A stretch of DNA of 35,095 nucleotides, taken from assembly GCA_903910705.1 (NCBI GenBank), contig CAIWAN010000002.1:1-35095 (forward strand), written 5' to 3'. The notes under the pieces were generated by a model that saw nothing but the letters and a program-made list of their open reading frames with translations, was not told where the DNA came from and searched no databases. Position numbers and translations under genes: made by a program. Positions within the stretch are counted from its first letter, which is position 1. Every line of letters begins with the position of its first letter. This DNA comes from an uncultured Candidatus Marinamargulisbacteria bacterium (GTDB taxonomy: Bacteria; Margulisbacteria; Riflemargulisbacteria; GWF2-35-9). Shown piece by piece: positions 13,213 to 34,760 of this stretch.

Positions 13213-13213
13213 T

Positions 13214-18845: not shown

Positions 18846-20549
18846 TTAGAAGTCGAACAGTAGGCCATCGTAGCTTTGGTTTAAGGCAACTGTGATGGGG
18901 AGCTGTTTGGCGGCGGGGCCCCACAATTGACGAGGCCCTGGTGAAGCAAAGTGGTCACTCTCGGCCCAATCTTTACGCCGTGAATTGAAATATTGAAAAG
19001 CGGGCGAGTCGGTTTTGACCAACGCTTTCTCGATGACCATCTCGTCTTGTCCATGTCGACGTTCTACATTAAGGAGTCCGGTCAACGGAAGGGCGAGTGG
19101 TGTTCCCCCATTGTCTAAATGGGCGATACTTGCGATATAGCCGGTTCGACCGGTCAGAATTAAGGAGCCTGCTGTTAGGCCAAGATTGTAGGTATACGCG
19201 GCATCAAAGAGCGTTGGCGCCCCACAGCGGCCTTCATAGCCAAAGAAGTGGTTTTGGGTGTTGAATTTTACGGAACGATCTTTTTCTTTGATCCGACGAG
19301 CGACCATATCAATCAATAACCGCTCAGTAGGAATGAGGGACACTTGAAGGTTGCCATGAGAATCACGATCGGCTAAAAGCATTTCTTCCATATAGTCAGG
19401 AAGTGAGGCCATCAGCTGCGCGTGTTGCGCTTTTAGCTTGGTGACAATGAAGTCACGTTTTTCACTGATGGACTTGCCCTCGATTTCGGTCGCAAAATGG
19501 GCCAATTTATCGTTAAGATCCTCGATCATTGTGGTCATTTCGGGAATGAATTCGATCACACCTTCAGGGATAAGGACGGCCCCATGATTAATGCCTTTCT
19601 TGGCTCTTGCGATAATGACAGATGAAATTTGCTCGACGATCTCACCAAGTGAAAGACGCTGCTCGGCGATCTCTTCAGAGATGAGCGTAATGGCGGGTTT
19701 GGTTTGAAGCCCGACTTCGAGCGCGACATGGGATGCTGACCGGCCCATCAACTTGATGAAGTGCCAGTATTTTCGACTGGAGGGGGTGTCTTGTAAGATA
19801 TTGCCAACCAGCTCGGCGTAGATCTTTGTCGCCGTATCAAATCCAAACGAAATGGGCAGAAGGCTTCCGATTTGAAGGTCGCCATCGATCGTTTTGGGAA
19901 CGCCGATCACCGCAACCCCCGACCCATCGGGTTTGACGCCGGTGTAGAGCATTTCGGCTAAGATCGCTGCGTTGGTATTCGAGTCATCGCCACCGATAAC
20001 CACAATGGCGTCGAGGTTGTGCCGGACACACGTTTCTTTTACCTTGGCAAACTGTTCGTCGGTTTTGATCTTGGTGCGATCGGAGCCGAGGAAGTCGAAC
20101 CCCCCAGTATTGGTGATCTTGGCAATGTCCGCACGGGTGATCTCAAAGAGGTCCCCCTCTAATAGACCTTTCGGTCCTGCTTTTACACCGAGCAAAGTGT
20201 TGTCGTCCCCAAGGATATTTTTAATGCCAACGACGACATTATGTCCGCCTGCTGCGGGCCCCCCTGAGAAAAGAACAGCGACTCGCTTTCCATTTTGGGG
20301 AGCGGTGTTGACGCTATCTGCTTTAAGGACATGGTTCATGGAACCCTTGACCGATCGACTAAACGCCTTATTGACTATGTCCGAGTCTTTGGTGGAAAGG
20401 GTCTCGCCTGTTTCCGTAAAGGTAACGGGGGCGAGGGGGCCACTTTGCAGAAACACTCCACAGGTTGGAATGTCCAATGTGCGGATCGCATTCTCAAAGA
20501 CGGAACAATTTCTTTCGCAAGCGTTTAGTGAATCAGTCAATGTGCTCAT
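18846..20549 (-). CDS. pfp: PPi-dependent 6-phosphofructokinase (PFP), long type
   Basis: Catalyses fructose 6-phosphate + PPi to and from fructose 1,6-bisphosphate + Pi (EC 2.7.1.90). The 567 residues match the long, plant-beta-like PFP class rather than the short 320-residue ATP enzyme. Seen: AVLFSGGPAAGGHNVVVG (phosphate-binding loop), VVIGGDDSNTNAAILAE with GGDD where ATP enzymes have GGDG, GVPKTIDGDLQ (PPi-type PKTIDGD rather than PGTIDND), and MGRSASHVALEVGLQ. Asp in GGDD and Lys in PKT are the residues that exclude ATP and select PPi. It has a strong AAGGAGA ribosome-binding site and follows fba by nine bases. It is the last gene of the tRNA-Lys/hppA-like/tpiA/fba/pfp group. The reaction is reversible, so this operon serves both glycolysis and gluconeogenesis, fitting the glycogen operon nearby. 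Confidence 0.95.
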   Translation of the reverse strand: MSTLTDSLNACERNCSVFENAIRTLDIPTCGVFLQSGPLAPVTFTETGETLSTKDSDIVNKAFSRSVKGSMNHVLKADSVNTAPQNGKRVAVLFSGGPAAGGHNVVVGIKNILGDDNTLLGVKAGPKGLLEGDLFEITRADIAKITNTGGFDFLGSDRTKIKTDEQFAKVKETCVRHNLDAIVVIGGDDSNTNAAILAEMLYTGVKPDGSGVAVIGVPKTIDGDLQIGSLLPISFGFDTATKIYAELVGNILQDTPSSRKYWHFIKLMGRSASHVALEVGLQTKPAITLISEEIAEQRLSLGEIVEQISSVIIARAKKGINHGAVLIPEGVIEFIPEMTTMIEDLNDKLAHFATEIEGKSISEKRDFIVTKLKAQHAQLMASLPDYMEEMLLADRDSHGNLQVSLIPTERLLIDMVARRIKEKDRSVKFNTQNHFFGYEGRCGAPTLFDAAYTYNLGLTAGSLILTGRTGYIASIAHLDNGGTPLALPLTGLLNVERRHGQDEMVIEKALVKTDSPAFQYFNSRRKDWAESDHFASPGPRQLWGPAAKQLPITVALNQSYDGLLFDF

Positions 20550-20558
20550 AATGTCTCC

Positions 20559-21551
20559 TTAGTATCTTCCGGCGCTGCCTAAGACTTTTTCATTTTTATG
20601 CTTGATGAGTTCGATCAACTCTTCACGAGCAGGGCCAAGGTATTTGCGGGGATCAAATTCGCTGGGGCTCTCGGCGAATACTTTACGGATGGCGGCTGTC
20701 ATCGCTAAACGACCGTCGCTATCGATATTGATCTTACAAACCGCACTGCTGGCAGCACGACGGAGTTGATCCTCTGGGATGCCAACGGCTGCATCAAGTT
20801 TGCCACCGTATTGGTTGATCATGTCCACATATTTTGGAACAACGGACGACGCCCCATGAAGAACGATCGCAAACCCCGGTAAACGTTTTTCGATCTCTTC
20901 GAGGATATCGAAACGAAGGGGTGGGGGAACGAGGACACCTTCAGCGGTGAGGGTGCAATCTTTGGGTTTAAACTTGAAGGCACCATGACTGGTTCCGATG
21001 GAGATCGCCAAACTGTCGACGCCGGTCTTGCTAACGAATTCTTGGACTTCGTTGGGGTCGGTGTAGTTTGAGTGCTCGTGAGAGACTTCATCTTCGATGC
21101 CAGCCAAGACGCCGAGCTCGGCTTCGACCGATACATCGCGGTCGTGGGCGTATTCGACGACTTTCTTGGTGAGGGCAATGTTCTCTTCGAATGGAAAGTG
21201 GGAGGCGTCGATCATGACGGACGAGAACCCACTATCGATACAGGACTTGGCTAATTCAAAACTATCGCCATGGTCGAGGTGAAGACAGATCGGGATATTG
21301 CTGCCCATCGAACGAGCGATCTCGACGGCGCCTTGAGCCATATACTGTAAGAGGATTTGATTGGCATACTTTCGAGCACCACTCGATACTTGCATAATGA
21401 CAGGAGAGCCGGTTTGCGCGCAACCCGTGACTATCGCTTGTAACTGCTCCATATTGTTGAAGTTGTAGGCTGGTATGGCATACTTTCCGTCGAACGCTTT
21501 TTGAAACATCTCTTTTGTGTTGGATAAACCTAATTCTTTATAACTAACCAT
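20559..21551 (-). CDS. fba: Class II fructose-bisphosphate aldolase
   Basis: Zinc-dependent aldolase splitting fructose 1,6-bisphosphate into DHAP and glyceraldehyde 3-phosphate (EC 4.1.2.13). 330 residues. Seen: NNMEQLQAIV near the N-terminus, LHLDHGDSFELAK with the Zn/catalytic residues, SVMIDASHFPFEEN, VEAELGVLAG, SLAISIGTSHGAFKF (a further Zn ligand in the TSHG motif) and LHGASSVVP (phosphate binding). A strong AAAGGAG ribosome-binding site precedes ATG 21551, 17 bases from the tpiA stop. It makes the substrate of tpiA and uses the product of pfp, so the three neighbouring genes are consecutive glycolytic steps. Confidence 0.96.
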   Translation of the reverse strand: MVSYKELGLSNTKEMFQKAFDGKYAIPAYNFNNMEQLQAIVTGCAQTGSPVIMQVSSGARKYANQILLQYMAQGAVEIARSMGSNIPICLHLDHGDSFELAKSCIDSGFSSVMIDASHFPFEENIALTKKVVEYAHDRDVSVEAELGVLAGIEDEVSHEHSNYTDPNEVQEFVSKTGVDSLAISIGTSHGAFKFKPKDCTLTAEGVLVPPPLRFDILEEIEKRLPGFAIVLHGASSVVPKYVDMINQYGGKLDAAVGIPEDQLRRAASSAVCKINIDSDGRLAMTAAIRKVFAESPSEFDPRKYLGPAREELIELIKHKNEKVLGSAGRY

Positions 21552-21568
21552 GATTGAACTCCTTTATA

Positions 21569-22324
21569 TTAATAATTGATGATGCCTAAGAAACTATCGG
21601 CTTTCAGACTCGCTCCACCGACCAACGCCCCGTCAATGTTCTCCTTGCCCATGAGCTCGGTTACATTCTCTGGTTTGACGCTGCCTCCGTAAAGGATAGA
21701 CAGACTATCCGCAGTTTTGGCATCCGATAAGTCTGATAGCTCTTTACGGATAAAGGCATGAACCGCTTCGGCTTGTTCGGGGCTTGCTGTTTTACCGGTA
21801 CCAATGGCCCAAACGGGCTCATAAGCAATGACGATCTTTTTGAGCTGTTCGGCAGAAAAGCCAGCAAGACCTTCGACAAGTTGGGTCTTGATAACGGCAA
21901 AGGTTTTGTCCGATTCACGCTCGGTCAACGTCTCACCGACACAGTAGATTGGGATGAGTTGGTAGTCGAGGGCGACTTTGACTTTTTTGTTGAGGAACGC
22001 GTTGCTTTCTTTGAAATATTCGCGACGCTCGGAGTGGCCCACGATCACGTATCGACATCCAACCGATTTAAGCATCATGGGTGATGTTTCGCCGGTAAAC
22101 GCACCCTTTTCTTCGGGGTACATGTTCTGTGCGCCCAGAAGAAGGTTGCTTGATGTTTTGATGAGCTCGCGAACGGTGGCTAAACTGATAAACGGCGGGC
22201 AAATGACCACTTCAACATCGTTCTTGTTGGCATAACTAGCCTTTAACCCTTTAACGAGCTGGGTTGCCTCGTCCAAATCGGTGAACATCTTCCAATTTCC
22301 TGCTATGATGACTTTCCTTACCAT
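21569..22324 (-). CDS. tpiA: Triosephosphate isomerase
   Basis: Interconverts DHAP and glyceraldehyde 3-phosphate (EC 5.3.1.1). 251 residues, the normal TIM-barrel length. Seen: AGNWKMF with substrate-binding Asn/Lys, VIVGHSERREYF with the catalytic His, AYEPVWAIGTGKTASPEQA with catalytic Glu and the flexible loop, and ILYGGSVKPEN. An excellent AAGGAGGGG ribosome-binding site precedes ATG 22324. It follows the membrane pyrophosphatase homologue by 25 bases and precedes fba by 17, so the genes are almost certainly cotranscribed. Confidence 0.97.
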   Translation of the reverse strand: MVRKVIIAGNWKMFTDLDEATQLVKGLKASYANKNDVEVVICPPFISLATVRELIKTSSNLLLGAQNMYPEEKGAFTGETSPMMLKSVGCRYVIVGHSERREYFKESNAFLNKKVKVALDYQLIPIYCVGETLTERESDKTFAVIKTQLVEGLAGFSAEQLKKIVIAYEPVWAIGTGKTASPEQAEAVHAFIRKELSDLSDAKTADSLSILYGGSVKPENVTELMGKENIDGALVGGASLKADSFLGIINY

Positions 22325-22349
22325 AAAACCCCTCCTTGTATTTAGAACC

Positions 22350-24296
22350 CTATATTATCAGTGGCAAAACAATGATGGCCACTGTGATCATGACTTTAAC
22401 GAAATTGTTCAGCGATGGGCCGGCCAGATCTTTTAACGCATCGCCAAAGAGGTCGCCCATCATGGCATTCTCATAGGTCTTTGTCCCCATTCCACCAAAA
22501 TGTCCCTTTTCCATCATCTTTTTGCTGTTATCTAATACCGCTCCTGCATTTGTGAAGCTCATGGACAGAAATATGCCGCTGATCATAATGCCCATAAAGA
22601 TCGTGGCGAGCATGTCCGCACCGAAGAGCTTTCCGATCAGGATGGGGATGAACAAAACAAAGAGGGTCGGGATGAACAAGTCTCGGATGATCTTGACCCC
22701 GCTATCGAGAATAAACACGCGCATATCGGGGAAGGCTTTTTGCTCGAATAAATAGGGAATGGTTTTGATCTGTTCGATCGAAGCATCGGCCATTTGTATC
22801 GCCGTATAGGACACCGCTCGAATCAGCGTCGAGGATAAAACATAGGGGAGTAGGCCACCAAAGAACAAGGCTGAGACGATGAGCGGGTGAAAAATTGACA
22901 CGGACTCATAGTGGACGCCTGATACTTTTATATAGGCGAGGAACAAAGAAAAGACGACGATAAGCGTAGCATTCGAGGCATAATTTTTGGCGAGCGCAGA
23001 AAGGGTGTTGCCCATGATGTCTAATTGTTGAACCCCTTTGATAATGTCGGGGTCGTTGGATTCCATTTTGGCTAGTCCCGTAATGTTATCGGCAAACGGG
23101 GCATAAAGGGAGGCGGCAAGGATGGTCGGCGCCATGGCCATAAAACCGGTAGCCATCATCATGATCCCGTAGAACCCAGAGAGTCGATAGGCGATCAAAA
23201 AGAAAACCCCCTCAAAAAAGAGAGGCCAATAGAGGCTTTTCATGCCAACGGCGAGACCGTTTAACATAGCAAGAGGCGCAGAGTGCTCGGCGAAACTGGC
23301 TAGTTCTCGAACGGGTTGATGGGCATCGGACGTATAGTAGTCGGTGGCGATGCCAATGAATACCGCCAGAATTAAGCCGAGGACGATGCAAATATAGGGA
23401 GCCATGCCTGTCGAGAAACCCAAGGATGATAAAAAGGAAAAGGACGGAAGAATGTAGTAGACAGAGAAGATAAACGAGAAAAGGCCGATCATAAAAAGAC
23501 TGACATAGATACTATGGATCGGCTTGAGGGCGTTGCCTAAAAGGGTTTTTCGTTTAAGGCCTAATAATAAAAATCCTGAAATAAAACTAATCACGATGCT
23601 CCCCAATATAATAAAGAAGGGGTACGACAATACGGCGTAGTAAAGGGTGTCGCGGAGGGATTTGTCGACCAGATGGCCTTGAATAAAAAGGATCATCGCG
23701 ACGAGAATACCGATCAGCGATTCGATAAGGTCGAAAGAAAGTGCGAGGCCATTATTGAGATAGTCCCCGATCTTGTCGGCGATGGCGGCAGGACTGCGAG
23801 AGTCGTTCTCTTTGACCATCGAGCTGGCAAGGTCGGCCCCTTTGGCGAAGATCCCCCCACCGAGTCGCGTAATAAACGAGACGATCCCGATACCTAATAA
23901 ATAGTAGATGGCACTGGAGCCGCCAAAAACGGCTAGGGTAAAGATCAGTCCACCCATGGGGAGTACGATCATAATGAGCGCCATAATGAGGCTTGCGGCA
24001 TAGTATTTATCGAACAAGCGTTCAGGTTGATGAATATAGTCGATCTCTTTGTTGCCTAGGAAACGAAAAATGATCGGGTAGGCGACGTTAAGGTTAAGTA
24101 GCGACAGCGTTGTGCCAAGCCAAAGGGCAAGGAATCCGTCAAGCCCAAGATGGGTGCCTTTGAGGAGGAATAAGCCTTCAAGGAGGACGCTGAAAATCGC
24201 CATTAAGGCCATGATGGACCACGTGGTGCGCCGAAGTAAAAAGAAGAGGTTCTCATGAATAAGCAGGATGACATTTTTGAGGCGATCGATGTTCAT
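22350..24296 (-). CDS. Divergent membrane pyrophosphatase (HppA-like)
   Basis: A 648-residue, about 16-helix membrane protein of the ion-pumping pyrophosphatase family, which couple PPi hydrolysis to H+ or Na+ transport. The C-terminal half is well conserved: ATDYYTSDAHQPVREL, LDIMGNTLSALAK, VLDNSKKMME and MGDLFGDALKDLAGPSLN. The N-terminal PPi site is altered. RLGGGIFAKGADLASSM keeps Arg144, Lys152 and Asp155, but Ser159 replaces Asp257 (mung bean numbering), the loop to IADKIGDYLNN is seven residues short and lacks the acidic segment with Glu268, and Asn182 replaces Asp287. The GNT motif continues with LS rather than the TA or TK that tell K+-dependent from K+-independent pumps. ATG 24296 with GAGGA upstream is preferred to an upstream GTG at 24326. 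It may be a pump with changed chemistry, or a non-hydrolytic relative. It heads the tpiA-fba-pfp operon. Confidence 0.88.
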   Translation of the reverse strand: MNIDRLKNVILLIHENLFFLLRRTTWSIMALMAIFSVLLEGLFLLKGTHLGLDGFLALWLGTTLSLLNLNVAYPIIFRFLGNKEIDYIHQPERLFDKYYAASLIMALIMIVLPMGGLIFTLAVFGGSSAIYYLLGIGIVSFITRLGGGIFAKGADLASSMVKENDSRSPAAIADKIGDYLNNGLALSFDLIESLIGILVAMILFIQGHLVDKSLRDTLYYAVLSYPFFIILGSIVISFISGFLLLGLKRKTLLGNALKPIHSIYVSLFMIGLFSFIFSVYYILPSFSFLSSLGFSTGMAPYICIVLGLILAVFIGIATDYYTSDAHQPVRELASFAEHSAPLAMLNGLAVGMKSLYWPLFFEGVFFLIAYRLSGFYGIMMMATGFMAMAPTILAASLYAPFADNITGLAKMESNDPDIIKGVQQLDIMGNTLSALAKNYASNATLIVVFSLFLAYIKVSGVHYESVSIFHPLIVSALFFGGLLPYVLSSTLIRAVSYTAIQMADASIEQIKTIPYLFEQKAFPDMRVFILDSGVKIIRDLFIPTLFVLFIPILIGKLFGADMLATIFMGIMISGIFLSMSFTNAGAVLDNSKKMMEKGHFGGMGTKTYENAMMGDLFGDALKDLAGPSLNNFVKVMITVAIIVLPLII

Positions 24297-24322
24297 TAAG
24301 AGTCCTCGCAGGGCGGTGGTTC

Positions 24323-24332
24323 TCACCGGTGA
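24323..24332. promoter_or_regulatory. Palindrome before the hppA-like gene
   Basis: TCACCGGTGA, a perfect 10-base palindrome, lies between tRNA-Lys and the pyrophosphatase homologue. It may be a regulator site or chance. Confidence 0.25.
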
Positions 24333-25265: not shown

Positions 25266-26597
25266 TTAGTAATAGAAAGTATGGCTGAGATAAAAGGAGC
25301 TTGGTGGAGCATCGGCGCCAAAATATTGCTCGGCACTTATGGAGAGATCCCAATTCTCGAGAAGGGCGATCTCGTCATTGATCTGGAGTGAGGGGTAGAA
25401 CACTGCCGTTTCGCTTAGGGTGTGCTTATAGACGTACACCAAGACTCGAACCGTCAGATCATGATTCGTGAAGCAGTTTTGTTGGATGGCTGCCGACCCA
25501 GAAAGCGAATAGTAATCATCCGACCATGACCAATCACCCCGAGCGTTGAACATTGAGTTCGCGATAAATATAGTCTTGCCTTGATAGGTAGTGGCTACCG
25601 AATAGGACTGTTGCCAATCGTTTCGGCGGCTCTGCACTGAGAGACCGAGTTGGGTTTGATCCTCTTTGATCTGTCCAAAGAGCCGCAGCCCATAATAGGC
25701 CACGTCGGTATTTTCGTACCATGCACTAAATCCGGTTTGCAAGGTTTTCGAGAGCTTGAGCGTTCCTTCTGCACTGATTTGCTTGATCGTTGGGGCTTGG
25801 TTATCGCTTATGTTCCCATATAACGCACGGCTATTGATCGTCCAGTTCATGAGAGGCGGAAGTGTGGCGGTATAGAAAAGATTGTTAATATTATTTTGAG
25901 ACGGGCTGCTCTCGTGGATCACCCCCACCATGAGGTTGTCCCATTTGGAGTAGATACCTTGTTTGTTTGTGTCCGTTTCGCGTCCGATGATCCCTCCCAC
26001 CGTCCAACCCGCTGTTGGGCTATAACTCGCTTGGCCCCCATCAAGGGTTCCGACATAGACGATATCACGGGGGACGAAACGGCCCACCCATAGTGTTTGT
26101 CCTGCTGTCGGCGAATAGTAGAGCTGCGCAACTTGACAGGATCGATCTGTCCCTCGAAAAGCAAGATCAAGGTCCCGAAGGTTGGCAATGGAGCGGATGC
26201 CGAGTTTTAGCCCTTGTCCGATCGTCGACCCATTGGTGAAGGTATTGTAATAGCCACTTATTTTCATGTTGGATCTCTTGATGACGGGAGGAGGGGGCGG
26301 TTCTTCAATCAGAGGGGTTTCGACAAGGCCTCGCTTTATCTTGATAAAGACAAGGTCGCCTGTTTTGAGGGTTTGACCTTCCGTAAGAAATTTGCAGGCA
26401 CTGGAATACTTCGAGGTATAGAGAACCTCTAACTCGATGGATGGATTGGCTACAGCGGCTACGATATCCCCTTCGGATAGCCCCGCAAGACTACCGGCAT
26501 TCAGATAGACATTCTCTTGGGAAAGATAGCTGACCTGAATATCAACAGATAAGGCGATGCTCAACAGTATCAACCCCATCATGAGATGTTTAATCAT
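25266..26597 (-). CDS. Outer-membrane beta-barrel protein of the cytochrome cluster
   Basis: A 443-residue secreted protein of no family I can name. Seen: a signal peptide (MIKHLMMGLILLSIALSVDI), a small beta domain (about 20-100, NVYLNAGSLAGLSEGDIVAAV... resembling a flagellar/OmpA-associated SH3-like fold), a proline-rich linker (EEPPPPPVIKR), then about 320 residues of alternating amphipathic strands (MKISGYYNTFTNGST, LWVGRFVPRDIVYVG, LQTGFSAWYENTDV), ending FYLSHTFYY. A final aromatic residue is the signal read by the BAM machinery. ATG 26597 has a GGAAGA site; further ATGs upstream lie inside the cytochrome gene. It is the last gene of the multiheme cytochrome operon, overlapping it, and is the obvious candidate for the porin of a porin-cytochrome conduit. 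It is smaller than MtrB/PioB barrels (about 650 residues), so a direct homology claim is not made. Confidence 0.75.
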   Translation of the reverse strand: MIKHLMMGLILLSIALSVDIQVSYLSQENVYLNAGSLAGLSEGDIVAAVANPSIELEVLYTSKYSSACKFLTEGQTLKTGDLVFIKIKRGLVETPLIEEPPPPPVIKRSNMKISGYYNTFTNGSTIGQGLKLGIRSIANLRDLDLAFRGTDRSCQVAQLYYSPTAGQTLWVGRFVPRDIVYVGTLDGGQASYSPTAGWTVGGIIGRETDTNKQGIYSKWDNLMVGVIHESSPSQNNINNLFYTATLPPLMNWTINSRALYGNISDNQAPTIKQISAEGTLKLSKTLQTGFSAWYENTDVAYYGLRLFGQIKEDQTQLGLSVQSRRNDWQQSYSVATTYQGKTIFIANSMFNARGDWSWSDDYYSLSGSAAIQQNCFTNHDLTVRVLVYVYKHTLSETAVFYPSLQINDEIALLENWDLSISAEQYFGADAPPSSFYLSHTFYY

Positions 26598-27543
26598 GTT
26601 TTCTTCCATCGGGATGACAGCGCATGCAATCGGCATTACTTGGTGATCGGGTATGACTGGAATTATGACAGCTCAGACAAGAATAGGTCGTGTAGTTAGA
26701 GGGATGACAGTCGTTACAACTGCTTCTTTTATGGTTTATCGGAAAAGTATGGTTAACTGACCATCCTGTTGTGCTATGACAGGACTCACAACTTGTATTT
26801 ATTCCTGAACTGGCATGCTTGGGGTTGGTCGTGTTGTTATAGTCAGCGCTATGACAGCCGTAACAGGTGTTCGGCGTTCCCGAATATCCACTGATATGAC
26901 AGGCAGAACAGGGTGTTGACTTGTGAGTGCCGGTCAAAGGAAAACTATTGTGAGAAAAGAAGGCCTTTAGCCAAGAGAGTGCCGTATGGCATTTATTGCA
27001 GTTCTTTTCGATGTTCAGCGAGCCATGATTGGGGGCAGACGTCGCCAAATAGTCTTTGGCGTGACAATCGTAACAGGTTGAACGAGTGCCCCGATATTGA
27101 TTGTTTGCGTGGCACTGTGAACATTCAATGCGAGCGTGAACCCCGACGAGCGGGAAGCCGGCTTCTTGATGCGATTGGATCATATTCCGTTGGATCTTTT
27201 GACTGGCCCATCGATCGTTGTCATGACAGGTTTCACACGCGACCCCCATTTTCCCTTTATGAACATCCTGATGGCAATCGGCACAACGTGTCCCCACTTT
27301 ATAAAAGCTGCTCGACCGATGACACGCCGCACAGGGGGCTTTTTTGTGCGCATGGGTCAGTCGAAAGCCCGTTTCATCATGCTTGAAAGGGGACTTCTGC
27401 GTATCGATCTGCCACGAATCTGAGGTATGGCAGACGGCACAAGGGGTTTTGATATTTCCATGAGGGTTTTGGGTCTTGGTTTGAAGACTAAAACTTATCC
27501 CACAAAGCAAAAGGAATAATGAAAGCCGTAATTTATTTCCCAT
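26590..27543 (-). CDS. Thirteen-heme c-type cytochrome
   Basis: A 317-residue exported multiheme cytochrome. Seen: a signal peptide (MGNKLRLSLFLLLCGISFSL) and 13 CxxCH heme-attachment motifs from CAVCH to CMRCH, about one per 23 residues. Extra His residues in patterns such as FKHDETGFRLTHAHKK, HQEAGFPLVGVH and FSHNSFPLTGTH are candidate distal ligands, suggesting bis-His, low-potential hemes. The repeated FxH..T.F.L.G.H...C..CH pattern is shared with the larger cytochrome upstream. It is likely periplasmic; LLLC in the signal is a poor lipobox. Its start overlaps the end of the 17-heme gene, and its end overlaps the barrel gene. Role: electron carrier of the conduit (inferred). Confidence 0.93.
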   Translation of the reverse strand: MGNKLRLSLFLLLCGISFSLQTKTQNPHGNIKTPCAVCHTSDSWQIDTQKSPFKHDETGFRLTHAHKKAPCAACHRSSSFYKVGTRCADCHQDVHKGKMGVACETCHDNDRWASQKIQRNMIQSHQEAGFPLVGVHARIECSQCHANNQYRGTRSTCYDCHAKDYLATSAPNHGSLNIEKNCNKCHTALSWLKAFFSHNSFPLTGTHKSTPCSACHISGYSGTPNTCYGCHSADYNNTTNPKHASSGINTSCESCHSTTGWSVNHTFPINHKRSSCNDCHPSNYTTYSCLSCHNSSHTRSPSNADCMRCHPDGRKHD

Positions 27544-28852
27544 TGATATGACACCCCTGACAGGTTAAGGGGAGTGGCTGATAGATGCCCCCTTGATGAC
27601 AAACCCGACAAGCCAGTTTTCGGTGGGCCCCGTCCAATATGTATCGGCTGTCCTGATTATGATTAAATTTGGACGCAACCCAGTTGCGGTCATCGTGACA
27701 CGCGTCGCAGGCCTTCGCCTCATTGATCGCTCTGAAGGCGCCTTTGTGTTTGTTCGGGTGGCAGTTTGCACAGCCGGTCTCATGAGAACGAAAGTCCCAC
27801 TGTTTGGACAAAGGACGGACATGGCAGGCTTTGCAGGAAACCGCCAAATGAGCGCCACTGATCTTGAAATGGGTTTGAGCATTATGGCGAGCCATCGAAT
27901 ACGTGGCGGGTGAAAACTGGGCAACGGTATGGCACGATTCGCAAGGGGATTGCGTAACCTCGTTTACGTGAGTGTTCTTGTGACACCCCTCACATTTATT
28001 GTAGACGAGGGGACGGTCGTTTTTCTTGTCTTTTGGGTGACACTGTTGGCACTTGACAGAGGTATGTTTGCCTTTGAGGGGGTATCGGGTCAAGTCATGG
28101 TTGAAGGGGACGCCCTTTGCCAGTGTTTTCCATGATTCGGTGGAATGGCATTTCTCGCAAGTCGTTCCAAGGAGACCTTTGTGTTTGTCTTCGTGGCAGG
28201 CCGAGCACGTGGAGTAGTTCGAAATGTTAAACAACATCGAGCCGTTGCTGGTGGAGCGTTTATGACATTGGGCACATTTCAGGCTGGCATGTCTTCCGGT
28301 TAGCTTGTAGCGTGTTTTGTTATGATTGAAGTGGGGGGAGGGCTTCCAACTGTCTTGATTGTGGCAGTTTGTGCAGGTTGAAGACAGTTGATTTTGGTGC
28401 GGGTCTTTATGGCAAGCAAAACAGTCTTTTGATAAACCGAGATAGCTCGTCTTTTGATTGGCGATCTGTTTGGCGGTATGGCATTTATCACAGGCCAATT
28501 GGCGGTGTTTTCCTTCTAATCGAAAGCCGGTGATGTTGTGGTTAAAGGAGTCCGGTTTTCCGCCTGACCAACGGATCAGGCTGGACTCTTTCCCCAGATG
28601 ATCTTTATGACACGTTAAACAGTTTTGATAGTCAGCGCGGGAATGGAGCCCCTTGTTTTTCGCAACGGCAGAATGACAATTTAGACATTTCTGATGGGAT
28701 ACTTTTTTAGCGGCCTCATGGCATTTTAGACAATTCCCCAACCCCTCTAAATGAGCATGGGATGCGTTGAGGTCACCCGGAGAAAACTGACTTGAAAAAG
28801 CCGGTGCCAGCAGGAATAGAAGCAGCAGAAGGGCTTTAGAAAATCCAGACAT
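27533..28852 (-). CDS. Seventeen-heme c-type cytochrome
   Basis: A 439-residue exported multiheme cytochrome with 17 CxxCH motifs (CLKCH to CQGCH). Seen: signal peptide MSGFSKALLLLLFLLAPAFS; then repeating modules of the form FNHNxTxFxLxGKHxxLxCxxCH (about residues 105, 180, 260, 320, 400), in which the two conserved His should be the sixth ligands of nearby hemes. An in-frame ATG at 28879 would extend the N-terminus by nine residues into the upstream gene; I chose 28852 because the signal peptide is then standard, but neither has a clear ribosome-binding site. Together with the 13-heme protein it offers about 30 hemes for a periplasm-crossing wire. Its gene is sandwiched between the membrane b-type protein and the 13-heme cytochrome with overlaps on both sides, so expression is coupled. 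Confidence 0.92.
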   Translation of the reverse strand: MSGFSKALLLLLFLLAPAFSSQFSPGDLNASHAHLEGLGNCLKCHEAAKKVSHQKCLNCHSAVAKNKGLHSRADYQNCLTCHKDHLGKESSLIRWSGGKPDSFNHNITGFRLEGKHRQLACDKCHTAKQIANQKTSYLGLSKDCFACHKDPHQNQLSSTCTNCHNQDSWKPSPHFNHNKTRYKLTGRHASLKCAQCHKRSTSNGSMLFNISNYSTCSACHEDKHKGLLGTTCEKCHSTESWKTLAKGVPFNHDLTRYPLKGKHTSVKCQQCHPKDKKNDRPLVYNKCEGCHKNTHVNEVTQSPCESCHTVAQFSPATYSMARHNAQTHFKISGAHLAVSCKACHVRPLSKQWDFRSHETGCANCHPNKHKGAFRAINEAKACDACHDDRNWVASKFNHNQDSRYILDGAHRKLACRVCHQGGIYQPLPLTCQGCHINGK

Positions 28853-29729
28853 AACCAAGGAAAAGGGCGATAGAAACATGGATAAAGAGAATGGTTAGCA
28901 TAATATACGCAAACGGGCGATGAATAACATGCCAGTAGTGAAATAGATGCTCAAGTTGTTTGAGGAATTTGATCTGATCGGCAAGTTGGGTTCGTTTGAT
29001 AAGCGCTTTGCGGATTTGTTTGAATTCTTTTCGAGCCAGATGGTGTTTGGTCGAATAGTTTTGACTAAGCCGTCGAAGGTAAAAAAAGTTGGCGATGTCT
29101 TTTTGGATGATCTGAAGAAAGAAGAGCCCCATATTATTGGAGGCGTTCATTTTCTCGGATCGAGGGTCGGGTTCGATCTGGCCGTATTTGGCCTCGACAT
29201 CGTCCAGATCATGCTGCCATTTCAGGTTCTGGTTTTCGATAAAATCGCTGTGGGCTGATACTTTTTCTTTTCGGTCTTTGATCTCTTGGGGGATCTTGAT
29301 ATATAAATATCGGCCGACGAATCCGCTAAGGGCAACCGCCGCCATCGACCAAAAGCTTACGGCTACGACCCCTCCGAACTTAAAGGAGGTATGAAGTAGA
29401 ATAAACAAAGGTCCCATGATGCCGAGATAAATATGGACATTCAACCAATCTTTGATGTTTCCCCAATTCGAGAAGAAGGCGATCCGTTTTCGAATGGAAT
29501 AGATCAGCATCAGCAACATCATGCCGGTTCCAAGGATGCCCAGTCCATGGCCAATAAGGCCCCCTGGTTTGTACAGTTCATGCAAGGGAGAAAACGGGCG
29601 CTCGGTCATCGGTAGGCCGTAATAGGGGAGTCCTTTGACCAAGAAAAAAACAAAGGCCGTAAAGGTGAAAATATACAATATCCCTAATAGGAGGTGAAAC
29701 GGTCGTGTTCCGTTTTGTTTATTTGTCAT
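28836..29729 (-). CDS. Membrane b-type cytochrome-like protein
   Basis: A 297-residue integral membrane protein I cannot assign to a named family. Five predicted TM segments: about 11-31, 56-78, 97-115, 121-143 and 270-294, with a cytoplasmic, charged, coiled-coil-like loop at 145-265. His61, His99, His113, His270 and His284 lie in or at the ends of these helices (GGLIGHGLG, LNVHIYLG, LLHTSFKFGG, HVIHRPF, FIHVSIAL) in spacing that could bind one or two b hemes, as in cytochrome b561/ferric-reductase-like proteins. It sits between the Fe-S/FAD protein and the multiheme cytochromes, the position expected for a quinol or flavin to cytochrome c link. ATG 29729 overlaps the preceding stop by 11 bases; a TTG start at 29747 is less likely. 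Confidence 0.7.
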   Translation of the reverse strand: MTNKQNGTRPFHLLLGILYIFTFTAFVFFLVKGLPYYGLPMTERPFSPLHELYKPGGLIGHGLGILGTGMMLLMLIYSIRKRIAFFSNWGNIKDWLNVHIYLGIMGPLFILLHTSFKFGGVVAVSFWSMAAVALSGFVGRYLYIKIPQEIKDRKEKVSAHSDFIENQNLKWQHDLDDVEAKYGQIEPDPRSEKMNASNNMGLFFLQIIQKDIANFFYLRRLSQNYSTKHHLARKEFKQIRKALIKRTQLADQIKFLKQLEHLFHYWHVIHRPFAYIMLTILFIHVSIALFLGYVWIF

Positions 29730-30681
29730 GATCGTTTTCTGCTCCAAACCGGATACCGATCTTTTTCAGTAAGGCGATTTCATTGCCCCGTCGCCCCAGA
29801 GCTAAGATGATGTTTTGGGCTTTGTAACGGCTGATCATTTTGGGGTCGTTGATATCCGTGACCCTGACATCAAAGACCCCATCGTCTTGCCGGACAACAT
29901 TAAATAGCTTTTTTGATAAGACTGAATGGAGCTTGTATTGATCGTGTATCGTTTCCCATAGTTGGATCAGTTCCTCTTTCGCATATTCGGATCGGGTGAG
30001 TTTGCCATAGAGTGGCAGTTCGACGAGGTCGGTCAAGACAAGTTTCTCGCGAGGATATTGACGAACGGTTCCCCCGATCCCTTGTTGGTCGATGAGTAAG
30101 TAGGATAACTGGTTTTCGATGGCGCCCAAGGCCGCCGCAATACCTGCGGGCCCTCCGCCGATGATAATGACATCGAAGAGGTCGGGGGTTTTGGGAAGAG
30201 GGGGCTTAAGTTGTTTAATGATCGCTTTGCCTTGATTGACGGCATTTCTTATCAACGCAAAGCCACCCAGCTCGCCAGCGATATAGATGCCTGCAATGGA
30301 GGTTTGCTGATTGGCGTCAACGAAGGGGATATCGGTGCGCTTCGAGGTGTCTCCAAGTCCGATCGTGATCGCCCCAACCGGACAGCTTGCCTCGCATCGG
30401 CCATGCCCTTTGCAGTTCGCGCCATTAATGATCGTCGACTTGCCCCCGACGAGCCCTAGAACTGTTCCCTCTGGACATTTTCGGACACAGGTTCCGCAGC
30501 CGATACAGAGTGAGAGGTTGATCTGAGGGTGTTGGACGGTGGGTTTGTCGGCTCCAAGTTGCTTCGATCGTTCCTTGGTCTGCAAGGATAACTGGGCATT
30601 TTGTTTCGTCTTTCGAATATAGGGCAGGACAAAAAATAATATGATCCCCACGACAACTAACCATGTCACAATCGTTTCCAT
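29719..30681 (-). CDS. Membrane-anchored 2[4Fe-4S]/FAD protein lacking its NADPH domain
   Basis: A 320-residue protein. Seen: TM at about 5-23 (TWLVVVGIILFFVLPYI), a ferredoxin domain with CIGCGTCVRKCPEG (about 59-72) and a second site CKGHGRCEASCPVG, in which His stands for the second Cys, a conserved joining segment IAGIYIAGELGGFALIRNAV, and an FAD domain DVIIIGGGPAGIAAALGAI...GGTVRQYPREKLV. It then reads NIILALGRRGNEIALLKKIGIRFG to the end. Relatives usually have, between GRRG and the terminal LLKKIGI, a Rossmann NAD(P)H domain of about 110 residues; here it is missing with the frame kept. So the FAD probably exchanges electrons with Fe-S clusters and not with NAD(P)H. It starts three bases after the ccsA stop (a GTG at 30684 is possible) and overlaps the b-type gene. 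Confidence 0.85.
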   Translation of the reverse strand: METIVTWLVVVGIILFFVLPYIRKTKQNAQLSLQTKERSKQLGADKPTVQHPQINLSLCIGCGTCVRKCPEGTVLGLVGGKSTIINGANCKGHGRCEASCPVGAITIGLGDTSKRTDIPFVDANQQTSIAGIYIAGELGGFALIRNAVNQGKAIIKQLKPPLPKTPDLFDVIIIGGGPAGIAAALGAIENQLSYLLIDQQGIGGTVRQYPREKLVLTDLVELPLYGKLTRSEYAKEELIQLWETIHDQYKLHSVLSKKLFNVVRQDDGVFDVRVTDINDPKMISRYKAQNIILALGRRGNEIALLKKIGIRFGAENDHDK

Positions 30682-30684
30682 CAC

Positions 30685-31497
30685 TTACGCGTACGAATGC
30701 AACCCCGTGAGCAAAAAATTGACACCGAAGTAGGTGAAAATGACCATGATGAAGCCCAGAACGGCAAACCAAGCTGAGACCGTTCCCTTCATTCCCTTTT
30801 TTAAGCGTAAATGAAGATACAACGCATAGATCAAAAAGGTAATGAGTGCCCATGTTTCTTTGGGGTCCCAGCTCCAATAGCTGCCCCACGCATAATAGGC
30901 CCATATCGCACCGAAAATGAGCGCACCAATGGTGTAGATCGGTAGCCCAAGGCAAATATATCGGTAGCCTAACTTGTCGAGGGACTCGAGTTCGGGTAAA
31001 CGTTTTGCCCAAGCAAAGGGCAGGTATCGTTTCATTAAGTAGAGGAGTCCTGCGACAAAGGCGATCGCAAAGGCCGCATCACCCAGAAACGCAAAGGTCA
31101 CATGGAGCTTGAGCCAGACCGACTGCAAGGCAGGTGCGAGGGGTTTGATCGTTGAGGGCATCAGTGAGGCGAGACCGATCATGACGACACCGGTGATCAT
31201 GGTCAGCCAAGCGACCGCGGAATGCTTCTTTTTCCAGTCTAGCCAAAGCGCCCCTGCCACAATGGCCCACGCGAAAAAGGACAACGATTCATACATATTA
31301 GAGACAGGGATAAACCCTGAGTCGACCCATCGAAGCAAAATGGCCGCAGTATGCGCGACCCAACCGATCAACCCCAGTCGGAAAGCCCATTTTGACGTGC
31401 CCTGAGCCCCCATTAAGGTTGTGATCGAATAGAACAGACTTGAGAGTAAGTATCCAGCAAAAGCGAGTAAGAATAGTTGCGAATGAAGTGCGGTCAT
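30685..31497 (-). CDS. ccsA: System II cytochrome c maturation protein CcsA
   Basis: A 270-residue membrane protein of the CcsA/CcmF heme-handling family. Together with ResB/CcsB it exports heme and attaches it to CxxCH. Seen: about eight TM segments, VAHTAAILLRW and LHVTFAFLGDAAF with the P-His/TM-His ligands, and the WWD-type heme-binding motif AWGSYWSWDPKETWALITF. Its partner resB (33786-34760) lies upstream in the same orientation but is separated by a calpain-type gene on the other strand. It leads the operon with the Fe-S/FAD, b-type, multiheme and barrel genes; 30 c-type hemes make a dedicated maturase useful. It has no good ribosome-binding site; a promoter lies close before it. Confidence 0.94.
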   Translation of the reverse strand: MTALHSQLFLLAFAGYLLSSLFYSITTLMGAQGTSKWAFRLGLIGWVAHTAAILLRWVDSGFIPVSNMYESLSFFAWAIVAGALWLDWKKKHSAVAWLTMITGVVMIGLASLMPSTIKPLAPALQSVWLKLHVTFAFLGDAAFAIAFVAGLLYLMKRYLPFAWAKRLPELESLDKLGYRYICLGLPIYTIGALIFGAIWAYYAWGSYWSWDPKETWALITFLIYALYLHLRLKKGMKGTVSAWFAVLGFIMVIFTYFGVNFLLTGLHSYA

Positions 31498-31513
31498 GTC
31501 GACAATAATACCA

Positions 31514-31541
31514 CTTATATAACAGGGAATTGAAGAACCAA
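31514..31541 (-). promoter_or_regulatory. Promoter of the ccsA-cytochrome operon
   Basis: On the minus strand TTGGTT (31541-31536) and TATAAG (31519-31514) are 16 bases apart, giving a start about ten bases before the ccsA ATG: a very short leader without Shine-Dalgarno. Confidence 0.5.
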
Positions 31542-31578
31542 TTTATTTTAATGCAATAAAGGCAGCGTAATTTACGAT

Positions 31579-31606
31579 TTGCTTATTGTCGGACTAATAA
31601 AAATAT
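31579..31606 (+). promoter_or_regulatory. Candidate promoter of the DUF4214-calpain gene
   Basis: TTGCTT followed 17-19 bases later by AT-rich AATATATA, about 20 bases before the gene, on the + strand of the divergent gap. Confidence 0.35.
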
Positions 31607-31625
31607 ATAAAGGGGTGGATTCTTT

Positions 31626-33773
31626 ATGTCAACAATACAGCAAGGCTATGGTTCATATAGTTCAACAACGGGTGTGAATACCATTGAAGGTAATTTCGGT
31701 GACTTAATGATGATTGGCTTGGATAATTCCAACGCCGATACGGGGCAGTATGTTGGTGCATCCTATCTTTCTATTACTCAAGACATTTCGGATATTAGCA
31801 TTATTCAAAATACCCCTGTTCGCACGGTTTCAGACCAACAGATCACTGGACTATATACCACTCTACTCAATCGAGCACCCGATGTGGGTGGGTTTCAATA
31901 CTGGCAAGAGCAGGCAAGTAGTGGCATGAGTCTTAGTGAAATGAAACAAGCCTTCGTAGCTTCTTCTGAATATGCTCAAATTCAAGCTGGAGCCAACACG
32001 ACCACAACACCAACGGGGACAATGGCTTCAACAACGCTATCTTCTGCTGTTCGCACGGTTTCGGACGAACAGATCACTGGACTCTTTACCACTCTACTCA
32101 ATCGAGCACCCGATGCTTCGGGGCTTCAATACTGGCAAGAACAGGCAAATAATGGCATGAGTCTTAGCGAAATGAGACAAGCCTTCGTAGCTTCTTCTGA
32201 ATATGCTCAAATTCAAGGAGCCGCTGGTGGAACCGTTTCAAGCGATCAAATTAAATCGCTATATACCAATCTCCTTAATCGATCACCTAATGCTAATGAA
32301 GTTCAATACTGGCAAGAACAGGCAAATAATGGCTTGAGTCTTAGCGAGATGAGAAAAGCCTTCGTTGCTTCACCCGAATATTCTCAGATTCAAGCTGCCG
32401 CTGAGAAACTATGTCCTGGATTCGATGCTTTAGCCTATGTCAATGCTAATCCTGACCTTTGTGCAGCGGCAGACGCAGCAGGGGCAACCCTATCCAACCC
32501 TGACGCGCGACGAACCTGGGGGGCTAATCACTTTGTACATTATGGGATTAACGAAGGACGCCCCCTTAAGCCCAGTAAACCTGCCGATTGGGATGCTACC
32601 TCCTATATTTACTCAAACCTGGATCTACAGAACTACTGCCGAAATACTCTTCACATCACAGATTTCAGTAGTTCAGCCGCCCGTGATTGGGCTGAGCAAC
32701 ATTATAACGATTATGGATGTCTTGAAAATCGACAGTATGCCAATCGTCAATTCCAGACGGCACCACCACTGCCTGAAAACTGGAATTGGTATAATTATTA
32801 CAATGATAACGCATCCTCTATAACGGCTGCAACACAGCTGTACTATAAAACCTATAATCAAGCTATCTCATTTCAAGAACTTGCAAACTTTTGTAAGAGC
32901 CTGTATATAAATCGAGGGTATGATTGTAGTATAAATCATGTTGATCTTGATCGAATAACGGTTTCAAATTATGCTTATGACTATTTCAAAATTGATAGAA
33001 GTCAAGATCTTGCGAACCCATCTAATATTTCCCCTTCCCATTTAGAAAACGTCAAGGAGCCACTATTTGTAAATGACGTTAGCCCCCTTGATGTCCAACA
33101 AGGTCAAGCTGGGGATTGCTATTTTCTGGCTGCCCTTGCTAGCCTTGCTGCTTCTGATCCCCAAATGATCAAGGACATGATCCACCCTAATCTTGACGGT
33201 AGCTATACGGTTGATTTCCATGATGGGGCCGGCGCGCTTGTTTCAACCATCGTAAAACCTGATCTGATGGTTCGTGATGATACGGGCCACCCGACCTTTG
33301 CGAGTTTTAATGTAGATGACCAACACGAGTCATGGGTAGCTATTATTGAAAAAGGATATGCCCAAGTCATGGGCGGCTATGCAATAATTGGATCGGGTGG
33401 AGATGCCATTATTGGATTGCAGGCACTTACAGGGCACAGATATACCGAGTACGCTTTTACAGTGAGACAGGGAGTAGACAGTAATTATTTGCTAGACCGT
33501 ATTAAACAATCACTTGATAACAATCTTCCTATGATTGCAGCTACATCGGGGTTAACTCCTGATTTAAATATTGTCCAGAATCATGCCTATGCAATTGTTG
33601 GGTATGATCCAACAACCCAAAAAATTCGACTCCAAAACCCGTGGAGATTTTACGAACCTGGTAGTGATGGAAAAGACGACGGGCAATTTAACCTATCCCT
33701 TGAAGACTTTACTCGAAATTTCATGTGCGTCTCCATCGATCAAACACTTCCGCCGTATATTGCGAGTGCATAG
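31626..33773 (+). CDS. DUF4214-repeat calpain-like cysteine protease
   Basis: A 715-residue protein. Residues about 65-256 carry three DUF4214 modules (ITGLYTTLLNRAPD...FQYWQEQ...MSLSEMKQAFVASSEYAQIQ); the first two are nearly identical also in DNA. Two further 50-residue modules follow (FDALAYVNANPDLCAA...HYGINEGRPL and WDATSYIYSNLDLQ), seen in many secreted proteins. The C-terminal 230 residues are a calpain (peptidase C2) domain: QGQAGDCYFLAALASLA with Cys498, NHAYAIVGYD with His653, and LQNPW with Asn671, a complete catalytic triad. No N-terminal signal is seen, so type I or other secretion is possible; DUF4214 proteins are often surface-bound. AAGGGG precedes the ATG. It lies between resB and ccsA on the opposite strand, is more A+T-rich than they are, and looks acquired. 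Confidence 0.9.
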   Translation: MSTIQQGYGSYSSTTGVNTIEGNFGDLMMIGLDNSNADTGQYVGASYLSITQDISDISIIQNTPVRTVSDQQITGLYTTLLNRAPDVGGFQYWQEQASSGMSLSEMKQAFVASSEYAQIQAGANTTTTPTGTMASTTLSSAVRTVSDEQITGLFTTLLNRAPDASGLQYWQEQANNGMSLSEMRQAFVASSEYAQIQGAAGGTVSSDQIKSLYTNLLNRSPNANEVQYWQEQANNGLSLSEMRKAFVASPEYSQIQAAAEKLCPGFDALAYVNANPDLCAAADAAGATLSNPDARRTWGANHFVHYGINEGRPLKPSKPADWDATSYIYSNLDLQNYCRNTLHITDFSSSAARDWAEQHYNDYGCLENRQYANRQFQTAPPLPENWNWYNYYNDNASSITAATQLYYKTYNQAISFQELANFCKSLYINRGYDCSINHVDLDRITVSNYAYDYFKIDRSQDLANPSNISPSHLENVKEPLFVNDVSPLDVQQGQAGDCYFLAALASLAASDPQMIKDMIHPNLDGSYTVDFHDGAGALVSTIVKPDLMVRDDTGHPTFASFNVDDQHESWVAIIEKGYAQVMGGYAIIGSGGDAIIGLQALTGHRYTEYAFTVRQGVDSNYLLDRIKQSLDNNLPMIAATSGLTPDLNIVQNHAYAIVGYDPTTQKIRLQNPWRFYEPGSDGKDDGQFNLSLEDFTRNFMCVSIDQTLPPYIASA

Positions 33774-33785
33774 ATATCGTTTGAC

Positions 33786-34760
33786 TCATGATGCTTCCTT
33801 GGAAAGATAAAGAATAGACAGGAACCCAACAGATAATAATACCACAGCGGCCCACATCCATATAAGGGAGGGGTCTTTGACAACCTTTATGCCCGAATAG
33901 TTTTGTGAGCGGCTAAATTGAAGCGTCATGTTCTCGATGACGACGGTCTTTCCGAGGGGCAGCATAATTGACTGAGGCTGTTCGCCTTTGAGGATCAGCC
34001 ACAAGACCGGATTGTTGTCTTCGGACGACAGGGAGGTCGAATCAAACCCCGTTCCGCCGGAGAAATCGGGAAAATATTGATAGACAAGCAGTTGGGCCGT
34101 GGCACTGAGTGAGATCGTTTGCGATTCTTGCGCGATTAACTCTCGACGGGTATTTTGTGGGGTGGTGAGGGTCAGGGTAAACGACTTGCCGTAGAATGAT
34201 TGGTAGAGTAAGTAGTCGCCTGCTTTGACGAGGTGATTCACGCTTAGTTTCTTGCGGGATTCCTCTCGGCCTTGCACATTAAAAATCGACAGATCGCTCT
34301 CGTAGTTCTTTAAATCCTTATTCTTGTCGAGCACGATGCGAAATCGATTGAGTTTGATGTGATGTTGATGGTCGGGCAGGGTGTAGGTCGAGCCTTCAGG
34401 TAGCGTGATGTCGATGTTTTGGGCAAAAAAGAGTTTGGTCAACGCGGCGATAAAAACTAGAATGATACCGAGGTGGATCAATTGGATAGCGACCGAGCGG
34501 ATAAAAGACTTGTTAATTGCGGCCTTCCCCTTATGCACCAATCGCTTGATCAATAGGAGGCTATGTCGACTGCAGCAGAGGGTCAGATTGATGAAGAGAA
34601 GTGACGACAAACCATAAAAGAGCGGGGAGGCGGTGAACGTGTTATTTGGAATAAGGGTGCTAATAATGAATAAGAGGGTCATGGCCCCAAGGATATAGAG
34701 TGACAGGGTCATCGAGGTGAAGAAATTGAGGAGGGAGGCAAGGGGAGGGCTTGGTTTCAT
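33786..34760 (-). CDS. resB: ResB/CcsB cytochrome c maturation protein
   Basis: A 324-residue membrane protein of the ResB (CcsB) family, partner of CcsA in system II cytochrome c assembly. Seen: TM helices at about 16-37 (MTLSLYILGAMTLLFIIST), 45-63 (LFYGLSSLLFINLTLCCSR), 90-110 (VAIQLIHLGIILVFIAALTK) and near the C-terminus (SLIWMWAAVVLLSVGFLSIL), and a large periplasmic domain of about 170 residues between TM3 and TM4 (DITLPEGSTYTLPDHQHH...). IQLIHLGIILVF has the TM3 His typical of ResB, which with the last helix helps pass heme. In most genomes resB and ccsA are adjacent; here the calpain gene separates them. ATG 34760 has no obvious ribosome-binding site. It is shorter than large ResB proteins but complete. 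Confidence 0.88.
   Translation of the reverse strand: MKPSPPLASLLNFFTSMTLSLYILGAMTLLFIISTLIPNNTFTASPLFYGLSSLLFINLTLCCSRHSLLLIKRLVHKGKAAINKSFIRSVAIQLIHLGIILVFIAALTKLFFAQNIDITLPEGSTYTLPDHQHHIKLNRFRIVLDKNKDLKNYESDLSIFNVQGREESRKKLSVNHLVKAGDYLLYQSFYGKSFTLTLTTPQNTRRELIAQESQTISLSATAQLLVYQYFPDFSGGTGFDSTSLSSEDNNPVLWLILKGEQPQSIMLPLGKTVVIENMTLQFSRSQNYSGIKVVKDPSLIWMWAAVVLLSVGFLSILYLSKEAS

Follow-up and report, generated by a model that had tools for sequence, protein, structure and literature searches.

A predicted PCC3-type electron conduit in Margulisbacteria with an iron-sulfur flavoprotein partner that lacks its NAD(P)H domain

Introduction

The gene clusters called PCC3, as defined in 2017, comprise a beta-barrel, an extracellular multiheme cytochrome (MHC; median 34 hemes), a periplasmic MHC (median 21) and an inner-membrane protein, which He et al. 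2017 describe as having ~300 amino acids (aa), an SGxxG motif and two WX3HX13H motifs (PMC5566968). In that source and in a Gallionellaceae survey (PMC10734462), PCC3 is reported from Proteobacteria as a set of four genes; no flavoprotein or pyridine-nucleotide gene is listed among them in the main text of He et al. Electron transfer by PCC3 itself is undemonstrated (PMC12442390). Among other conduits, MtrCAB, MtoAB and PioAB share the logic of a barrel joined to multiheme cytochromes, Geobacter ExtHIJKLMNOPQS combines porin-like, multiheme and b-type/Fe-S components in one cluster, and clusters of Ignavibacteria that encode 33- and 40-heme MHCs have been termed OmbB-like (PMC7399161). Here we describe a locus in a 35,095-nucleotide stretch of margulisbacterial DNA (the window) that resembles PCC3 in its predicted proteins and adds an iron-sulfur (Fe-S) flavin adenine dinucleotide (FAD) protein, as well as CcsA and ResB.

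The window is contig 2 of a draft genome (2.2 Mb, 119 contigs) whose host is a Candidatus Marinamargulisbacterium. Margulisbacteria are the lineage sibling to Cyanobacteria. We consider it probable, at roughly two chances in three, that these genes form an operon for an extracellular electron conduit of the PCC3 type, which brings its own factors for heme attachment, has an Fe-S/flavin entry and, here, takes electrons from a donor other than reduced nicotinamide adenine dinucleotide (phosphate) (NAD(P)H).

Results

On the minus strand, from 34760 to 25266, the window encodes ResB, CcsA, the Fe-S/FAD protein, a histidine-rich membrane protein (hereafter the b protein), a 17-heme cytochrome, a 13-heme cytochrome and a barrel (Table 1). 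The six genes from CcsA to the barrel, and their order, had been named in a sequence-only reading of the window, and all are present, with 17 + 13 = 30 CxxCH motifs and CcsA above its curated cut-off. That reading spoke of six overlapping genes, which holds for the open reading frames (ORFs) from Fe-S/FAD through the barrel, whereas CcsA only abuts Fe-S/FAD; its end at 34760 takes in ResB, which belongs functionally but is split from CcsA by a plus-strand gene. In a genome of the same family (G002, CAIUUT010000127) the locus is uninterrupted and reads ResB, CcsA, Fe-S/FAD, b protein, a 20-heme cytochrome, a 19-heme cytochrome and barrel. Because content and order are retained there and across several phyla, the gene set is far beyond chance. 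Start codons conserved in relatives are probably internal for the b protein, the 17-heme cytochrome and the barrel. Promoter-like sites in the window stand at chance level only, and terminator-like sites, slightly above it, were not used.

The b protein ties the locus to PCC3. Numbered from 29747, it carries W101/H105/H119, S141G142xxG145 and W272/H276/H290, so that WX3HX13H occurs twice together with SGxxG, the complete PCC3 inner-membrane-protein signature according to alignments and signature counts in 82 homologs. A profile built from five margulisbacterial and acidobacterial sequences, with no proteobacterial members, recovers strong homologs from Acidobacteriota, Zixibacteria and Ignavibacteria. 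Clear homologs also appear in Gammaproteobacteria, with E values as low as 1.4e-38 and 21- to 24-heme MHCs encoded alongside. For the b protein, a search of solved structures gives no match. Further likenesses to PCC3 are the barrel, the large, predicted periplasmic MHC, the variable second MHC, the 300-aa length of the b protein, the low number of residues per heme and the repeated modules; in contrast, the window barrel is smaller (~20 strands versus up to 42) and its hemes are fewer (17 and 13). Judged by its predicted proteins, the locus is thus a PCC3-type system in Margulisbacteria, a phylum not reported for PCC3 in the parts of the PCC3 literature consulted. The sequence-only reading was therefore wrong that no known set matches, since signature, gene content and heme numbers all fit PCC3 (PMC5566968), to which the literature on large-heme porin clusters led; an unreported kind of conduit is ruled out. 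Its broader proposal, a porin-cytochrome conduit with b-type and Fe-S/flavin input, keeps the backing of the anatomy and of whole-set conservation across phyla. Compared with MtrCAB, MtoAB and PioAB, the window has this Fe-S/flavin and b-type input instead of CymA. Membership in Mtr was rejected because the 17-heme protein scores 20.9 bits against a DmsE-family decaheme model with a cut-off of 192.2, and membership in Ext because the scores with the curated ExtN and ExtO models are 24.2 and 23.4 bits, their cut-offs being 200.

By the order of its motifs, the Fe-S/FAD protein is a predicted circularly permuted, thioredoxin-reductase-like flavoprotein. An N-terminal helix is followed by CxxCxxCxxxCP, CxxHxxCxxxCP, a C-terminal-type FAD segment (TSIPGIYIAGE) and GGGPAG, with the NAD(P)H domain last in full-length relatives. 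The TSIPGIYIAGE segment is homologous to the C-terminal FAD segment of thioredoxin reductases and precedes the GxGPxG segment; both FAD-binding elements are present in the window protein in this permuted order, and the permutation places the NAD(P)H domain at the C-terminus. CxxHxxCxxxCP occurs in 65 of 68 Fe-S/FAD sequences, while the second Cys of CxxCxxCxxxCP is lost in a subset of relatives. Bdr/YpdA, thioredoxin reductase and ferredoxin-NADP reductase are homologous to the FAD and NAD(P)H domains of these relatives (7a76, 7a7b). Unlike these flavoproteins, the family is permuted and has two Fe-S motifs and a membrane anchor, and its members in the genus of the window have lost the NAD(P)H domain. 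In G002, the frame of the Fe-S/FAD gene is open and preceded by a ribosome-binding-site-like AAGGAG, with no ATG, GTG or TTG before the membrane anchor (L007:7437-7623); the gene may use an ATT start.

The Fe-S/FAD gene is a near-constant partner of the b protein. Both occur in 46 Ignavibacteria genomes, with the b protein alone in 1, Fe-S/FAD alone in 2 and neither in 148; the corresponding numbers in Gammaproteobacteria, where b-protein matches were taken at E ~1e-21 or better and weaker ones excluded, are 40, 2, 2 and 325, and in Margulisbacteria both are found in the same 3 of 55 genomes and neither in 52, the Fisher tests for Ignavibacteria and Gammaproteobacteria taking no account of how the genomes are related. 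On a shared contig, the median gap between the two genes is 635 bases in Ignavibacteria and 478 in Gammaproteobacteria. This partner, unlisted in the PCC3 literature as far as the parts consulted go, looks new; it may have been left out of PCC3 counts because in Gammaproteobacteria the Fe-S/FAD gene, next to the b protein, is mostly transcribed divergently. In one complete Ignavibacteria genome (L234 in G629), no cytochrome gene lies within 9 kb of the b protein, and the Fe-S/FAD gene is ~15 kb off. A related family is represented in six other Ignavibacteria genomes (G563, G468, G515, G610, G522, G574) by ORFs of 765-839 aa that match profile positions 118-432 (1e-82 to 1e-97), the FAD/NAD part without the Fe-S part.

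In the genus of the window, the Fe-S/FAD protein has lost its NAD(P)H domain cleanly. The domain (GGGDxxxE) is present in G002 and all other full-length relatives examined and absent from both the window's genome (G000) and a second genome of the same genus (G001, CAIUCY010000002), in which the in-frame junction GRRG-NEIALLKKIGI is identical and the whole domain is gone. Assembly error is ruled out as the cause, the same junction being found in two separate genomes that are ~84% identical in the Fe-S/FAD protein. The shortened protein gives a confident model (predicted local distance difference test, pLDDT, 87.8; predicted TM-score, pTM, 0.80) that matches the FAD domains of Bdr, ferredoxin-NADP reductases and lipoamide dehydrogenases. 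Between the two genomes, the FAD part has a ratio of nonsynonymous to synonymous substitution (dN/dS) of 0.057 and the Fe-S part one of 0.071, similar to the 0.066 of the b protein; the values are rough because dS exceeds 1. On these ratios, decay of either half of the Fe-S/FAD protein is rejected. Hence, the protein is maintained under purifying selection without its NAD(P)H site, and no second Fe-S/FAD copy was found in the window's genome at E up to 1e-30. Since the binding domain is missing, NAD(P)H in its customary binding site would not be what reduces the flavin. The flavin entry of the sequence-only reading therefore calls for caution. The deletion looks new.

It is unlikely, if worth serious weight, that the b protein draws instead on menaquinol, with the Fe-S/FAD protein as a regulator, maturation aid or side branch; a quinol route that suffices here would have allowed the NAD(P)H site to be lost, and the domain is indeed dispensable in this genus. 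He et al. proposed menaquinol feeding of the PCC3 inner-membrane protein, whose two bis-His b-heme sites resemble those of quinone-active cytochromes b (PMC5566968), and a few complete loci have a b protein without a nearby Fe-S/FAD gene (L197, L200). A UbiA-family prenyltransferase is encoded in 3 of the 3 margulisbacterial genomes that bear the set, but members of this family also act in non-menaquinone pathways. Against a quinol-fed conduit, the Fe-S/FAD gene and the b protein are hardly ever found apart across phyla, and constraint on the Fe-S and FAD parts has persisted since the domain was lost.

The two cytochromes agree with PCC3 in heme number. With 17 hemes in the window and 20 in G002, one triheme module apart, the larger protein comes near the median of 21 for the periplasmic MHC, and its counterparts in Zixibacteria, Ignavibacteria and Gammaproteobacteria have mostly 20-24; its periplasmic location is predicted. 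It has no match in a solved-structure search, and no further multiheme relative of it was found in the genome. The 13 hemes of the second cytochrome, predicted to be extracellular, lie within the range of 10-35 for the second PCC3 MHC of Gallionellaceae (PMC10734462), and in relatives the number varies from ~10 to 73. An FxHxxTxFxLxGxH...CxxCH module, thought on first reading to be shared by both proteins, is evident in the 17-heme cytochrome (3 exact and 5 relaxed copies), whereas the 13-heme cytochrome has one relaxed copy only. Second cytochromes with 67-73 CxxCH in one reading frame were seen at L206 and L207 (Zixibacteria) and at L271 and L273 (Gammaproteobacteria; 69 in L273).

As in PCC3, a predicted beta-barrel is encoded in the cluster. 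An AlphaFold2 model (pLDDT 80.3, pTM 0.59) has ~20 long strands and a small N-terminal beta domain, which bears out the barrel expected from sequence and supports an outer-membrane location rather than any specific mechanism. Homologs stand beside the cytochromes in the same position in other phyla, although profile similarity to the gammaproteobacterial barrels is weak (19-40 bits), and a barrel is found in most neighbourhoods uncut by contig ends, as the proposed co-occurrence with the cytochromes predicted. That the cytochromes are instead periplasmic parts of a respiratory or detoxifying system, with a barrel that moves a soluble substrate and no surface wire, is quite improbable. Such a system would account for the best structural matches of the barrel, which are substrate porins, and it gains from the 13-heme protein having no conserved lipobox and from cytochrome localisation that is predicted; on the other side stand the recurrent barrel itself, a second cytochrome whose heme count spans 10 to 73 against a steady ~20 in the first, a pattern that fits a surface wire, and the lack of a recurrent reductase gene in the conserved set as scored, other gene families not having been searched.

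We compared 60 neighbourhoods from Acidobacteriota, Zixibacteria and Ignavibacteria and a further 20, of which 19 are gammaproteobacterial and 1 is from Bacteroidota; some are cut by contig ends. The synteny anticipated for the cluster recurs in Acidobacteriota, Zixibacteria, Ignavibacteria and Gammaproteobacteria as a set of b protein, first cytochrome (mostly of 20, 21 or 23 hemes), variable second cytochrome, barrel and Fe-S/FAD protein, without the maturation genes and in a different order in some Acidobacteriota. Carriage by 3 of 55 genomes rules out a trait inherited throughout Margulisbacteria. In trees of the Fe-S/FAD and b proteins, Margulisbacteria fall beside Zixibacteria on long branches, with support of 0.996 in one tree (for a group that includes one acidobacterial sequence) and 0.83 in the other. 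This placement, together with the absence of the set from most of the phylum, suggests lateral acquisition by Margulisbacteria, the support being uneven.

The maturation genes belong to System II, as CcsA and ResB/CcsB both exceed curated cut-offs, and they adjoin each other in G002. Between them in the window lies a plus-strand gene whose 715-aa product has three DUF4214 domains and a calpain-like (Peptidase_C2) domain; it looks like a recent insertion. Elsewhere in the window, a phosphofructokinase-type kinase (567 aa), a class II aldolase, triosephosphate isomerase and a membrane H+-pyrophosphatase stand in a row (18846-24326, minus strand), which suggests pyrophosphate-linked glycolysis. 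A plus-strand gene at 16089-17369 fuses an N-terminal thioredoxin domain to a thioredoxin-reductase-like flavoprotein, and upstream of it (12676-16049) are genes for an extracytoplasmic function sigma factor, another flavoprotein, a methyltransferase and a radical SAM protein.

Table 1 Features of the locus in the window.
Feature	Position	Strand	Basis
ResB (CcsB/Ccs1-like), System II cytochrome c maturation	33786..34760	-	PF05140 58.3 bits, cut-off 24.6
DUF4214/calpain-like gene between ResB and CcsA	31626-33773	+	missing at the G002 position
CcsA-type heme-attachment protein, System II	30685..31497	-	TIGR03144 248.1 bits (cut-off 187.6); PF01578 160.5 bits
Membrane-anchored Fe-S/FAD protein, 321 aa, without NAD(P)H domain	29719..30684	-	Pfam Fer4 and Pyr_redox; motifs
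Deletion junction GRRG-NEIALLKK in the Fe-S/FAD gene	29770..29790	-	~120 residues missing versus G002 and other full-length relatives
Inner-membrane protein, two predicted b hemes; likely start 29729	28836..29747	-	alignments, PCC3 signature
17-heme cytochrome, predicted periplasmic wire of triheme modules; likely start 28852	27533..28879	-	17 CxxCH, 26 aa/heme
13-heme cytochrome, predicted outer/extracellular partner	26590..27543	-	13 CxxCH, 24 aa/heme
Predicted outer-membrane beta-barrel, ~20 strands, small N-terminal beta domain; likely start 26597	25266..26636	-	AlphaFold2

Discussion

In the mechanism that we propose, electrons would enter at the Fe-S/flavin subunit, which is anchored in the inner membrane and predicted by the positive-inside rule, from basic residues after the helix, to face the cytoplasm. 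The di-heme b protein would carry them across the inner membrane, the 17-heme cytochrome would serve as a periplasmic wire, and the barrel and the 13-heme cytochrome would pass them through the outer membrane to an external acceptor. In most relatives the flavin subunit includes an NAD(P)H-binding domain, which makes NAD(P)H its probable usual partner; with that domain gone in this genus, the donor here is probably reduced ferredoxin or another protein with access to the flavin or the Fe-S clusters.

We favour an outward flow, since the Marinamargulisbacteria described so far are without CO2 fixation and predicted to be heterotrophs (PMC6349859), and since PCC3 of Sideroxydans ES-1 is not induced by Fe(II) (PMC8788666). 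In the opposite sense, electrons from external Fe(II), minerals or a partner cell would reach the flavoprotein and then NAD(P)+ in most relatives, or ferredoxin or another carrier in this genus. PCC3 occurs in the genomes of Fe(II) oxidizers (PMC5566968; PMC10734462), and conduits of such kind can be reversible. An inward conduit is nonetheless distinctly unlikely, as electrons would have to go uphill from Fe(II) to NAD(P)+, expression of the ES-1 clusters fell with Fe(II), and the predicted heterotrophy of the hosts speaks against it as well.

Several observations weigh against the conduit as proposed. The nearest solved folds of the barrel in Foldseek are general porins, with TM-scores up to ~0.5, MtrB is absent from the best structure matches, and, set against MtrB, a barrel of 20 strands is a tight fit for a cytochrome. 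Co-occurrence of the Fe-S/FAD and b proteins is no proof of physical partnership, and the dN/dS values are approximate. The ES-1 clusters are not only lower under Fe(II), their proteins are also sparse (PMC8788666, PMC12016527).

A wider reading would make PCC3 in many phyla a wire that bypasses the quinone pool and links a cytoplasmic Fe-S flavoenzyme, normally coupled to NAD(P)H, with the cell surface, this genus having switched its donor by a deletion that the circular permutation eased. We hold this tentatively, with slightly more doubt than confidence. Compared with the parts of the PCC3 literature consulted, PCC3-type clusters would extend from Proteobacteria to Acidobacteriota, Zixibacteria, Ignavibacteria and Margulisbacteria. 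The constant Fe-S/flavin partner offers a concrete and testable answer to where electrons enter or leave this widespread system, and points to a path linking cytoplasm and exterior that does not depend on quinones, while one genus that has naturally lost the NAD(P)H domain provides a built-in experiment on what the donor must be.

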